Below, piece by piece: positions 39,217 to 44,146 of a stretch of 45,961 bases of DNA (positions are counted from its first letter, which is position 1; each line of letters begins with the position of its first letter). Below the pieces are notes generated by a model. That model did not search any database. It had not been told where the DNA came from and worked only from the letters and a program-made list of their open reading frames with translations. Both the position numbers and the translations under genes were made by a program. The DNA is taken from assembly GCA_013694695.1 (NCBI GenBank), contig JACDBX010000191.1:1-45961 (forward strand). The letters run 5' to 3'. The DNA comes from Gemmatimonadales bacterium (GTDB lineage: Bacteria; Gemmatimonadota; Gemmatimonadetes; Gemmatimonadales; GWC2-71-9).

Positions 39217-40155
39217 TCATTTCGACGGTGGTCCCGCCACCCACGTCAGCGGGACGTCTGAACCAGCGGTGAATACCGGCATTTGTTGAACGACGGTCCC
39301 AGTCTTGGCATCGAGAATCTCGAGAGAGACGTGCGGTGAAACCCGATCCCCGTACACAACCGAGAGGAAGCGCCCGTCGGGCGACCAAGCAAGGTTGACC
39401 ACCACCCGGTAGGTTCCGCGCTTGGCAACCGCTTGCGTGATTGGATTCATCACGGCGACCAACATGGTGTCGCGATTCAGTCCGGCCCTTTCATAATACG
39501 CCACCGCAATGTCGCCGGTCGCCGGAGAGACCGCCACCACCTGTGTGTTCGCCGGCCCTACGGTATCGGGCGCTGCGCCCGGCACTGTGATGTCGAGCCG
39601 GAGCAAGGCCGACTCCAAATTGTAGTTTTCAGCGAAATAGAGGTACCGCCCGTCGGGCGACCATGCAGATGTTCCTCCAATGAACCGGTCCGGCGGAATG
39701 GAATACAGGGCGGTTTCGCCCGAGCGGTCGATATTGACAAGCACGAAGTGGGGCCGCGCAAAACCCAGCGGTGTCCTCCGCGCCAGAACACGTTGTCCAT
39801 CGGGATGCCACGTGACCCGCCAATCTGCATAGCTGTTGGTGATGTCCCGTGCCAAGCCAGTCGATAGCTTGTAGATGATTACCTTGCCCAACTCGGTGAA
39901 GGCGAGCCACTCCCCATCCGGTGACACCGTCGGAAACGGCACGGTCCCGAACGGAATGGCAAGCGTGTCGAACCGCTGTGTTGCCACGTCGATGGCGATC
40001 ACCCGGAACGCATTCCCGGGCGTGACATCACCCGTGTAGATGATGCCGCTCGGTCGCACCGGGTCCGGCGGTGTGGTGACATCGCCACCGCAAGCAGCGA
40101 CCACCAACGCGAGCGACAGCCCCCAGCCGGCCCTCGGCGTGCGGGCCCGCAGCAT
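39217..40155 (-). CDS. Predicted lipoprotein with TolB/WD40-like beta-propeller repeats
   Basis: MLRARTPRAGWGLSLALVVAACGGD (lipobox VAAC); repeated SPDGEWLAF, HPDGQRVLAR, SPDGRYLYFAE, SPDGRFLSVVY. TGATG coupling with the upstream gene. Confidence 0.8.
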   Translation of the reverse strand: MLRARTPRAGWGLSLALVVAACGGDVTTPPDPVRPSGIIYTGDVTPGNAFRVIAIDVATQRFDTLAIPFGTVPFPTVSPDGEWLAFTELGKVIIYKLSTGLARDITNSYADWRVTWHPDGQRVLARRTPLGFARPHFVLVNIDRSGETALYSIPPDRFIGGTSAWSPDGRYLYFAENYNLESALLRLDITVPGAAPDTVGPANTQVVAVSPATGDIAVAYYERAGLNRDTMLVAVMNPITQAVAKRGTYRVVVNLAWSPDGRFLSVVYGDRVSPHVSLEILDAKTGTVVQQMPVFTAGSDVPLTWVAGPPSK

Positions 40156-41551
40156 CAACAACCTCCTACCGCGTCGGTTTCGCCGCCACCCGATTTACCG
40201 GTCTTACGCTGGTCGCTTGGCGGCGGCGGGCTGAACTGATCTCCCCCTCCCCCGGCCCCCGTGCAGACAAACAGATATTCGGTGGTGTCAAATCCGTTCA
40301 CGCTGGCAATGAACGTAAGTCGGTACGACGCTGATGCGGGAACCGAGAAACTTACGCTGGGCCCAGTGGCCAGCGTCGTCTGGTTCGGAGTCAGGCTGCT
40401 GATGATCTGCCACGAAACCGGCCCAGGTGCCGCGGGATCTGAAAGGGCAGCCGTGGCCGTGTGACCGCCGGGCGTAACCACCGGTGACTCGCTGAAGGTG
40501 ATCGACGTCACCTGCAGCGGTAGCGGCGTGGGAACTTTCACCGCCACGATGACGCTGTCGCCCAGCTCGAGAAATGGCGTCCACATGGTAAAGCCGCTCG
40601 GTGTTCCGCTAGACGGGAGCAAACGGATCATTGCCGTCCCGGTGGCCACTCCAGTGACGAGCCCGGTCGACGTGACCGTCGCGCGGGACGCATCGCTCGA
40701 CACCACATAGTGATCACCCCATCCTTTGCTCAGATTCGCCGCACTAGGGTCGTCGGTGCGCCACGCCGAAAGCGATAGCTGCACCGTGTTCTGGGGCGCA
40801 AGGCTGTCCACAAGGGTGGGGTAGACATCGGTGCCAATGATCAACGGCTGGTTGAAGAAGAAAGCGTCCAGGTTCGTTCCGGCGTAAGCGCGGAAAATGG
40901 GCTCGACTTCGTGGTGACATATGCCTTCGGGGATGAAGTTCCCCTCGGCCGCCTTCGGCAGAAATGTCACGCAATTCAGCGTGAAGGGGTATTGCGCGTC
41001 CCGCGGACCACCAGCATGGACATTGCTGTAGCCAAGTACGTGCGCGAGTTCATGCTTGATCGCGTTGACCAGGCTGCCCCTGTTCAGGTTGTTGCATGAT
41101 GACGATGTCGCGGGGATGATAGTGACAATCGTCGGGCGTGAGTTGCCGTCTACGTCCGTAACACCGCAGTACGCTGAGCCGGTTCCCGTGACCGTCACCG
41201 TCACGACCCCGCCGCCCTGACTCGCCGCGAGAATGGGCGAACCGGTGTAGCGCCCCTGTGCAAGCAACGTGTTCCATGCAGCAACAGCATCCGAAATCGA
41301 ACCGTCGATGTTGTTGGGCGAGCCGACCGTAATGGTGTAGTTGGGATACCAACACGTGGGGTCGACGGGTGTTGAGCCGCTGGGGGTACAGAGTCCACCC
41401 GCCAAGACCGAGGCGGCAATAACGCCCGGCGAGTCGGACGAGGGGGTCGTGCCGGGCTCAGCACACGCCGTGGCGAGGATCAGGGAAGCGGCAACAGTCG
41501 CACGCAGTGCATTCGAGGGCCGGGCGGTTGCCCGGCGGGGGGGGGATACAT
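40155..41551 (-). CDS. Putative secreted zinc metalloprotease lipoprotein with Big_2-like domain; 5' end frameshifted or phase-variable in this sequence
   Basis: NAIKHELAHVLGYSNVHAGG (HExxHxxG), Ig-like YVVSSDASRATVTSTGLVTGVATGTAMIRL. Reading frame upstream of 41405 continues as ...ALRATVAASLILATACAEPGTTPSSDSPG (signal peptide with lipobox), but the SD-preceded ATG at 41551 is one base out of frame because of a 9-nt G tract. Confidence 0.65.
41537..41545. repeat. G9 homopolymer tract (C9 on the coding strand)
   Basis: cccggc GGGGGGGGG ataCAT: nine consecutive G between the candidate ATG (41551-41549) and the lipoprotein frame. Confidence 0.9.
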
Positions 41552-41583: not shown

Positions 41584-41606
41584 GGCGCGGGTACCGCGCC
41601 TGTCAA
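41584..41606 (-). promoter_or_regulatory. Candidate promoter with inverted repeat in the spacer
   Basis: Minus strand TTGACA (41606-41601) followed by exactly 17 nt GGCGCGGTACCCGCGCC (7-bp inverted repeat), then a weak GATGCT. Confidence 0.35.
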
Positions 41607-41634: not shown

Positions 41635-41650
41635 TGGCCACCGGTGGCCA
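41635..41650. terminator. Perfect palindrome TGGCCACCGGTGGCCA just after the oligopeptidase stop, possible terminator stem
   Basis: 16-bp perfect dyad 5 nt beyond the minus-strand stop at 41656; no U tract. Confidence 0.35.
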
Positions 41651-41655
41651 TCTCG

Positions 41656-43695
41656 TCACTCACGCGTATTACTTACCCCCAGCGCCACCAACAGGAATGC
41701 CTGGTCGGTCGCGATCTCCTTGAACCGTTCGTAGCGCCCCGATGCCCCGCCATGCCCCGCCCCCATGTTGGTGAGCAGCAGCAACGGCGCATCGTTGGTC
41801 CTGAGGCGCCTCAGCCGCGCCACATACTTCGCGGGTTCCCAGTACATCACCTGTGAATCGTTGATGGCGGTGCGCACCAGCATCGCTGGATACTCACCAG
41901 CGCGCAGGTTGCGGTACGGGTCGTACGCTTCCATCCACAGCCGCTCGGCGGGTACTGCCGGATTCCCCCACTCCTCGTACTCCCCCACGGTGAGCGGCAG
42001 CGTCGAGTCACTCATGGTGGTCACCACATCGACGAACGGCACGTGAGTCACCACTGCCGCGAAGAGGTCGGGCCTGAGATTGGTGACTGCACCCATCAGC
42101 AGTCCGCCGGCACTGCCACCCTCGATGGCGAGCCGCCCTGGTGCCACTCGCCCGGTGTCCTGGAGGTGGGCTGCGCAGGCGATGAAATCGGTGAAGGTGT
42201 TCATCTTGTGCTGCATCCGGCCGGCGTCGTGCCACGCCTTGCCGAGGTCTCCCCCGCCCCGGATGTGTGCCACGCCGAACACGATGCCGCGGTCGAGCAG
42301 TGACACCCGTGACGACGAGAACGACACCGAGTACGGATAGCCGTACGCGCCATACGCGGTAAGCAGCCCCGGCGCGGTGCCGTCCGCCGGTACGTCGAAG
42401 CGTCGGACCAGCGAGATCGGAATCCGGGTGCCATCGGCAGCGGTCGCGTGGGTGCGCTCGGTGACGTACTGCGTCGGGTTGTACCCGCCCAGGACTTCCT
42501 CCTGCTTGAGCAGCGTCAGCGTCCGGCCGTCTAAGTCATAGTCGTAGATGGATGTGGGCGTCACGAACGATTCGTAACCAATGCGGATGCTCGTAGCGTC
42601 CCATTCGGGGTTCGCGTGCATCCCGACGTCGTAGCTGGCCTCCGGGAACGCTACCCGATGCTGCTCCCCACTCTCCAACTGGTGCACATGAAGTTGCGGG
42701 ATCCCATCGATCCGCTCGCTCAGCACAATATGACCCGCGAAGGCATCGATGTCCTCGATCATCACCGCGTCGTCGTGCGCTACGATCTCTTCCAGCGTAT
42801 CACTCGGCCCTTCCACCGGCATGCGCGCTATCCGGAAGTTGCGCCCCGTGTCGTTGATCCTCACCAGGAAGTGCCGGCTGTGGTGCTCGATGTCGTACTC
42901 GATCTCGCTCCGACGGGGCATCAGCGTGCGCCAGAGCCCACGGGGGGCGGATGCCCGGAGCACCCGGCATTCGCTGGTGGTGTGACTGCCGATGGTGAGG
43001 ACCAGCCACTCGCGGCTGCGGGTGCGTCGCACGCTGAGCGAAAATGCCTCATCGTCCTCGTGCAGCACCAGCTCCGGCTCGCCACCGATCGCCTGGCGCC
43101 AGAGCGTGTCCCCTCGCTTGGTGACCGGATCTTCGGTCACGTACAGCAATGTCCTGCTGTCATCCACCCACGCCACGCTGGTCACCCGTTCCGCCACCAG
43201 ACGCTCACGCTCGCCCGTGGTGAGGTTTCGGACCATCAACCGATACTGCCGGAACCCGGTGTCGTCGGTGGAGTAGGCGAGCAGCGCATCGTCGTCGCTC
43301 ACGGCGAAGGCGCCGAGGGCCATGAACGAATGGCCATCCGCCATCGCGTTCAGGTCGAGCAGCACTTCCTCCGTGCTGCCTTCCGCCCTGCGGCGGCGCG
43401 CGTGCACGGGGTACTGCATCCCCTTCTCGAAACGGCGATAGTACTCGTAGCCGCGCAATGGCACCGGCACCGAGACATCTGTTTCCCGGATCCGGGCCAC
43501 CATCTCCTCGAAGAGCTGTTGCCGAAGCGGGGCCGTCGGTGCCAGCACCGCATCGGCGTGCGCATTCTCGGCTTCGAGGTAGAGGATGGTGTCGCGATCG
43601 GCGCGGTCGCGGAGCCAGGCGTACTCGTCGGGAGCGGCGGGATCGTCCCGCGGGGTCGCGACGGGTGCTGTGGATGGAGCGAAGAGACCGTTCAT
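41656..43695 (-). CDS. Oligopeptidase B (S9A prolyl oligopeptidase family)
   Basis: MNGLFAPSTAPVATPRDDPAAPDEYAWLRDR; TAYGAYGYPYSVSFSSSRVSLLDRGIVFGVAHIRGGGDLGKAWHDAG, AIEGGSAGGLLMGAVTNLRPDLFAAVV, C-terminal MGAGHGGASGRYERFKE. Confidence 0.94.
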   Translation of the reverse strand: MNGLFAPSTAPVATPRDDPAAPDEYAWLRDRADRDTILYLEAENAHADAVLAPTAPLRQQLFEEMVARIRETDVSVPVPLRGYEYYRRFEKGMQYPVHARRRRAEGSTEEVLLDLNAMADGHSFMALGAFAVSDDDALLAYSTDDTGFRQYRLMVRNLTTGERERLVAERVTSVAWVDDSRTLLYVTEDPVTKRGDTLWRQAIGGEPELVLHEDDEAFSLSVRRTRSREWLVLTIGSHTTSECRVLRASAPRGLWRTLMPRRSEIEYDIEHHSRHFLVRINDTGRNFRIARMPVEGPSDTLEEIVAHDDAVMIEDIDAFAGHIVLSERIDGIPQLHVHQLESGEQHRVAFPEASYDVGMHANPEWDATSIRIGYESFVTPTSIYDYDLDGRTLTLLKQEEVLGGYNPTQYVTERTHATAADGTRIPISLVRRFDVPADGTAPGLLTAYGAYGYPYSVSFSSSRVSLLDRGIVFGVAHIRGGGDLGKAWHDAGRMQHKMNTFTDFIACAAHLQDTGRVAPGRLAIEGGSAGGLLMGAVTNLRPDLFAAVVTHVPFVDVVTTMSDSTLPLTVGEYEEWGNPAVPAERLWMEAYDPYRNLRAGEYPAMLVRTAINDSQVMYWEPAKYVARLRRLRTNDAPLLLLTNMGAGHGGASGRYERFKEIATDQAFLLVALGVSNTRE

Positions 43696-43778
43696 CGCGG
43701 AAAGATATGCCGACCGGTGCGCGGTGCATGACCGCAATGCATCAAGCCCCGCTGCCTGGGGGCAACGAGGCCTGATGA

Positions 43779-44146
43779 TGGAGGCGCAGGGAATCGAACC
43801 CTGGTCCGAACCAACTTCCGGGACCGCTTCTACGTGCGTAGGCTCTGCTTCACACTTGGCGTCGGGCCGGCGCAGTGCCAGCCTTCCCGACGTTGACCTC
43901 CTGTGTAACACACTTCCGATGTCGGAGGACCATCGGTCGCTAGTCCGGATTGATGATTCCCAAGCCGACGCCCCGGACGGGCTTCGGACCCAGGAGGTGC
44001 ATGAAGCGAACTCCTAGGAGCTCAGCTTACGCAGCCATCGCCAGATCAGTGTTGGCAATTGTGTTTTTTCCGAGTGGTTTTATCAGGACCTCGGACCTGA
44101 GCACGCGACGATGCCTTCTATCAATCCGTCGAAGCCGATCGCCCCC
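43779..44146 (-). ncRNA. ssrA: Transfer-messenger RNA (tmRNA, ssrA)
   Basis: 5' GGGGGCG(AUCGGCUUCGACGG) pairs with 3' CGCCUCC-A including a G3-U pair; T-arm CAGGG-TTCGATT-CCCTG; tag ORF GCC AAC ACT GAT CTG GCG ATG GCT GCG TAA at 44056-44027 (ANTDLAMAA). 3' CCA not genomically encoded. About 368 nt. Confidence 0.96.

Follow-up and report, generated by a model that had tools for sequence, protein, structure and literature searches.

A C9 tract two codons into an accessory lipoprotein gene of a Gemmatimonadales genome is a candidate slippage switch in its OFF length

Introduction

Homopolymer phase variation, in which the length of a coding tract sets the reading frame, has been documented mainly in host-associated bacteria. 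One such system is nalP of Neisseria meningitidis, which encodes an autotransporter surface protease and undergoes phase variation through a poly-C tract, the gene being ON when the tract contains 7, 10 or 13 Cs (PMC3723659). More generally, tracts at the 5' ends of genes are sites of hypermutable inactivation (PMC2831843). The mechanism of homopolymer slippage is already known, and the Gemmatimonadota case described here is a candidate for it. In the open-licence full-text literature, we found no title or abstract describing phase variation in Gemmatimonadetes/Gemmatimonadota, which is a weak negative.

The DNA analysed is a stretch of 45,961 nt (hereafter the window), corresponding to contig C10 of a Gemmatimonadales MAG of 195 contigs; the genome is 2.80 Mb and 94% complete. 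An original prediction, made from the letters of the window, had proposed that a homopolymer puts a lipoprotein protease gene out of frame with its start codon. Here, we describe how that prediction fared and how the locus compares with known systems.

Results

The tract separates an ATG from a long lipoprotein frame

The following features define the start region:

41537-41545, minus strand: C9 homopolymer (G9 on the plus strand), the proposed slippage tract, in codons 3-5 after the ATG
41549-41551, minus strand: ATG start codon, with GAGG ahead of it at a spacing of 5 nt (41560-41552)
41480-41551, minus strand: abortive frame of 23 codons, opened by ATG 41551 with C9
40155-41558, minus strand: lipoprotein gene frame of 467 codons, lacking a usual start codon ahead of the lipobox

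Read directly, the minus strand is ...CCCTGAGGTTCGC-ATG(41551-41549)-TAT-CCCCCCCCC(41545-41537)-GCCGGG..., and the run at 41545-41537 contains exactly nine Cs. It is the sole C/G tract of at least 8 in the window, and the allele is defined by one assembled sequence with one tract length. The G9/C9 run, the GAGG-N5-ATG arrangement and the 23-codon frame were thus all as originally predicted, down to every sequence detail. With C9, the frame of ATG 41551 reads MYPPPAGQPPGPRMHCVRLLPLP* and ends after 23 codons at the TGA at 41482-41480. The 467-codon frame is preceded by an in-frame TGA (41561-41559) and is then open to the TGA at 40157-40155. As had also been stated, this frame contains no ATG, GTG or TTG between the upstream TGA and the TTG at 41405, which sits past the lipobox.

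The products of other tract lengths were computed, giving 30 codons for C8, 31 for C11 and 465 for C10, so that one extra C does join the ATG to the long frame, in agreement with the prediction. This junction is obtained only at tract lengths of 1 modulo 3 (7, 10, 13), and the C9 run is therefore a coding tract whose length sets the frame, which is one of the properties that define homopolymer phase variation.

The joined frame has a lipoprotein signal peptide and a zincin-like motif

We compared the N-terminus of the joined frame with the PROSITE PDOC00013 rules for lipoproteins, which are the pattern {DERK}(6)-[LIVMFWSTAG](2)-[LIVMFYSTAGCQ]-[AGS]-C, the Cys at position 15-35 and a K or R among the first seven residues. 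The joined frame has the lipobox SLILATAC, its Cys at position 30 and an Arg within the first seven residues; it agrees with all of the rules, and the description of a textbook lipoprotein signal peptide was correct.

The 467-codon frame further contains a putative zincin motif (HELAHVLG), a weak Big_2 match and a C-terminus that ends in Cys. Searches of Pfam and NCBIfam gave no match to a peptidase family, the solved-structure matches fell outside the HELAH region, mostly on the Ig-like region, and the AlphaFold model was uninformative (pLDDT 30). The HExxH signature of zincins is present as HELAH here and as HEFAH(VLG) in a relative from another genus (G017, see below), and the corresponding sequence of a paralogue on contig C147 is QETAG. 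Of the label "metalloprotease" in the original prediction, the motif stands, but neither Pfam nor NCBIfam supplies a peptidase family and the paralogue has lost the motif; a protease role is a motif-level guess from HELAH.

A C-terminal domain with a conserved Cys tail (DAVGGC, NAVGGC, DAVANC) recurs in otherwise different secreted proteins of Gemmatimonadales. It occurs at 40158-40190 of the window and at loci L003, L004, L083 and L084, and its carriers include a 155-aa lipoprotein (contig C123) and a subtilase-like protein in genome G023.

The lipoprotein gene belongs to an accessory pair

The long frame is flanked by two genes:

39217-40156, minus strand: downstream lipoprotein with PD40/TolB-like beta-propeller repeats
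41656-43911, minus strand: upstream gene of the S9 prolyl oligopeptidase family, with orthologues in congeners

The ATG of the downstream lipoprotein (40156-40154) overlaps the TGA of the upstream lipoprotein gene (TGATG), and the former is therefore probably translationally coupled to the latter. The paralogue in the same genome (L004, G000:C147:9365-10756; 33% identity) and the relative in another genus of the same family (G017; 29% identity) align over most of the lipoprotein. Cysteines are conserved among the three, one of them at the C-terminus or close to it, and the long frame is thus a genuine gene. At all three loci, a second lipoprotein-like gene lies next downstream. In the window and in G017, this second gene encodes a PD40/TolB-like beta-propeller lipoprotein and its start overlaps the upstream stop; the protein downstream of the C147 paralogue is only weakly similar.

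The two genes form an insertion bounded by the S9 gene and purK, which are 2.5 kb apart in the window and lie directly end to end in congener G003, where the site is empty. An S9 orthologue, either clear or as a fragment, was found in eight of the nine congeners, and the lipoprotein gene is absent from all nine; the pair is accessory. Searches of the nine congeners, of the family and the order, of 398 genomes from the class and of genome_contigs and plasmids gave no close orthologue that would allow a comparison of tract length. The nearest homologues are the two that are 29-33% identical, and what a profile search across the order recovered was mostly cross-matches to Big_2. JABDII01, the one relative of the gene that bears a name, matches a same-family genome, which points to Gemmatimonadales as the order of the MAG.

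The G017 relative has a normal start without poly-C. The C147 contig terminates in CCCCC just upstream of the signal peptide of the paralogue and in frame with it, which is no more than suggestive of a shared poly-C start because the contig end hides the rest of the run. We rejected a repeat-induced break at this contig end, since its terminal 200 nt are unique. A G15 run is present at the very start of contig C117 (G000:C117, L023), beside an apparent regulator gene fragment; that this run might mark the missing half of the paralogue was rejected, since the gene next to it is unrelated and lies on the opposite strand.

Inverted repeats around the start

Two inverted repeats are located close to the start codon:

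41519-41536, minus strand: 7-bp all-GC hairpin GCCGGGC-AACC-GCCCGGC (-15 kcal/mol), directly 3' of the C9 tract
41584-41600, minus strand: intergenic GC palindrome GGCGCGG-TAC-CCGCGCC

The hairpin had not been mentioned in the original prediction. Six all-GC stems of this kind are present in the window, and the placement of the hairpin beside the tract may therefore be coincidental; it could just as well favour slippage or interfere with sequencing. In the intergenic region around 41584-41600, neither a sigma-70 promoter nor a terminator was called. A perfect 16-bp palindrome, TGGCCACCGGTGGCCA, is located at 41635-41650, just past the stop codon of the S9 gene. The possibility that the upstream region is a shuffled cassette repeated elsewhere was rejected, as there is no real second copy and the best chance match lies inside unrelated coding sequence.

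Homopolymer tracts in the genome

All 43 C/G tracts of at least 8 in the genome were listed, and the frame on either side was judged by a codon-usage model for which the window served as training set. Besides the C9 tract under study, 14 tracts of 8-9 have coding signal on both sides, and all 14 keep phase. Start-proximal tracts are also in frame (C9 at C152:8873; C8 at C156:6388 and C164:15791), as is the C9 tract at C161:9333, and no second case of an out-of-frame, start-proximal tract in a gene was found among the 43 tracts. The C9 at C124:646 was rejected as a second frameshift because it forms a stop/start gene junction. Since the other coding tracts keep phase, we rejected the view that the assembly is generally bad at homopolymers. 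The assembly indel that the original prediction had named as the mundane alternative is thus unlikely in the form of a general problem, leaving room for a single error.

Runs of at least 8 numbered 43, versus about 42 extrapolated from the decay of run lengths, and those of at least 9 numbered 13, versus 9.0. Assuming 2,500 genes, about 0.35 tracts of at least 9 are expected by chance within the first 30 nt of some gene, and an SD-like 4-mer precedes about 5% of the window's ATGs at the same distance. With these run counts and chance expectations, the combination of tract, position and SD is suggestive but statistically not overwhelming. Six tracts of at least 8 are located within 150 nt of contig ends, versus 0.9 expected (P ~3e-4). 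Poor coverage at tracts, or heterogeneity in their length, could account for this excess, and read support near tracts may therefore be thin. The genome encodes MutS1 and MutL.

One congener, G007 (e.g. L135-L139), contains 710 C runs of at least 9, whereas the remaining nine genomes of the genus have 1-13 each. The distribution of run lengths is bimodal and peaks at exactly 9 (C7 twice, C8 nine times and C9 30 times in 99 kb); a T precedes 28 of the 30 C9 runs, and 15 of the 17 confident coding cases keep frame. This excess reflects either a genuine motif or an artefact that is systematic in a single assembly.

Discussion

Our preferred reading, to which we give a probability of about 0.4, is that C9 is a natural OFF allele that arose by slippage in a 5' poly-C tract, with switching being putative. 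An accessory gene for an outer lipoprotein would have its native start at the SD-preceded ATG 41551, and the nine Cs directly past codon 2 would be a slippage-prone stretch whose present length is OFF. Slippage by one C during replication would lead ribosomes into the 23-codon abortive frame and would probably also lower the coupled downstream lipoprotein; at 7, 10 or 13 Cs, the lipoprotein would be made. Such a switch is favoured by a tract placed exactly two codons into the gene of a lipoprotein, by a frame that is otherwise undamaged and by the C run at the C147 paralogue. It is tempered by tract counts that equal chance, the lack of a second such start among the 43 tracts, the presence of MutS1 and MutL, the normal start of the G017 relative and the excess of tracts at contig ends, where read support may be thin. 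To the frames, the tract, the lipoprotein signature, the two-gene layout and the accessory status, all of which are observed, this reading adds what we infer: a true majority length of C9, variation of the tract within the population and reversible switching.

A wider reading would see here a contingency-type, poly-C-controlled surface lipoprotein operon in free-living Gemmatimonadales, with the paralogue sharing the poly-C start and a small family being switched stochastically. This is decidedly unlikely.

A possible, if doubtful, alternative to the OFF allele is that a recent slip in the C run disrupted a gene that this strain can dispense with, and which would now be a young pseudogene without selected or reversible switching. 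A large survey put singleton frame transitions mostly down to errors or indels (PMC3711429). The gene is accessory, being absent from the nine congeners and from the empty purK/S9 site in G003, and the family would seem to decay, because the C147 paralogue has lost the HExxH motif. However, the frame shows no other damage along its 467 codons, so that any loss of the gene must be recent, and the lesion is located exactly in a tract that is able to slip back.

We consider it unlikely that the true tract is C10, the gene is intact and the missing C is an assembly or consensus indel. The fragmentation of the MAG into 195 contigs, the excess of tracts at contig ends, which points to poor coverage there, and the break of the C147 contig at a C run all speak for such an error; against it, the 14 other coding tracts of 8-9 are in frame, and the contig runs on for about 4.4 kb past the C9 tract. 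In one assembly, either a one-off inactivation or a consensus error would have an appearance identical to that of an OFF switch.

It is improbable that C9 is genuine and that the full protein is made by recoding, either through RNA polymerase slippage or through -1 ribosomal slippage, perhaps aided by the hairpin. A -1 shift on C CCC CCC would yield the same MYPPPRR... product, and a strong hairpin is located directly downstream of the C run. The usual spacer between slippery heptamer and stem for a -1 frameshift is 5-9 nt, but the stem here starts 0-3 nt past any usable heptamer, which is too close. Moreover, the arrangement is found in no conserved relative, and a survey of transcriptional slippage concerns A/T runs (PMC1088944). 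Finally, an unusual start (CTG or ATC) within the signal peptide, with the ATG being incidental, is very improbable: CTG codons do occur in the long frame ahead of the lipobox, but neither has an SD, and the signal peptide that is left would have at most 15 residues.

If verified, the slippage switch that we prefer would show that a cell surface can be switched stochastically away from host immunity, in an environmental phylum that is uncultured and GC-rich. As in Mycobacterium tuberculosis, where the glpK poly-G tract (7 bp) and other tracts frequently acquire frameshifting indels (PMC11898584), a G/C tract is involved; in M. tuberculosis, there are indel data on a population scale, whereas the case here is a single sequence, and the genome studied here encodes MutS1 and MutL. 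The inlA gene of Listeria monocytogenes also has a tract near its 5' end at which a frameshift results in a very short peptide, of 8 aa for inlA and 23 here (PMC2831843). The inlA tract is poly-A, and its two states and their reversion were measured. No sequence relation is expected between the lipoprotein of the window and nalP. Switching of nalP was shown by tract lengths in multiple strains and by immunoblots, whereas the present case consists of one sequence and a protease role at the level of a motif. What the two have in common is a poly-C tract that lies within coding sequence and belongs to a surface protein (predicted here, as is its putative protease role), and the same ON lengths of 7, 10 or 13 Cs, which for the window are those computed to join the frames.
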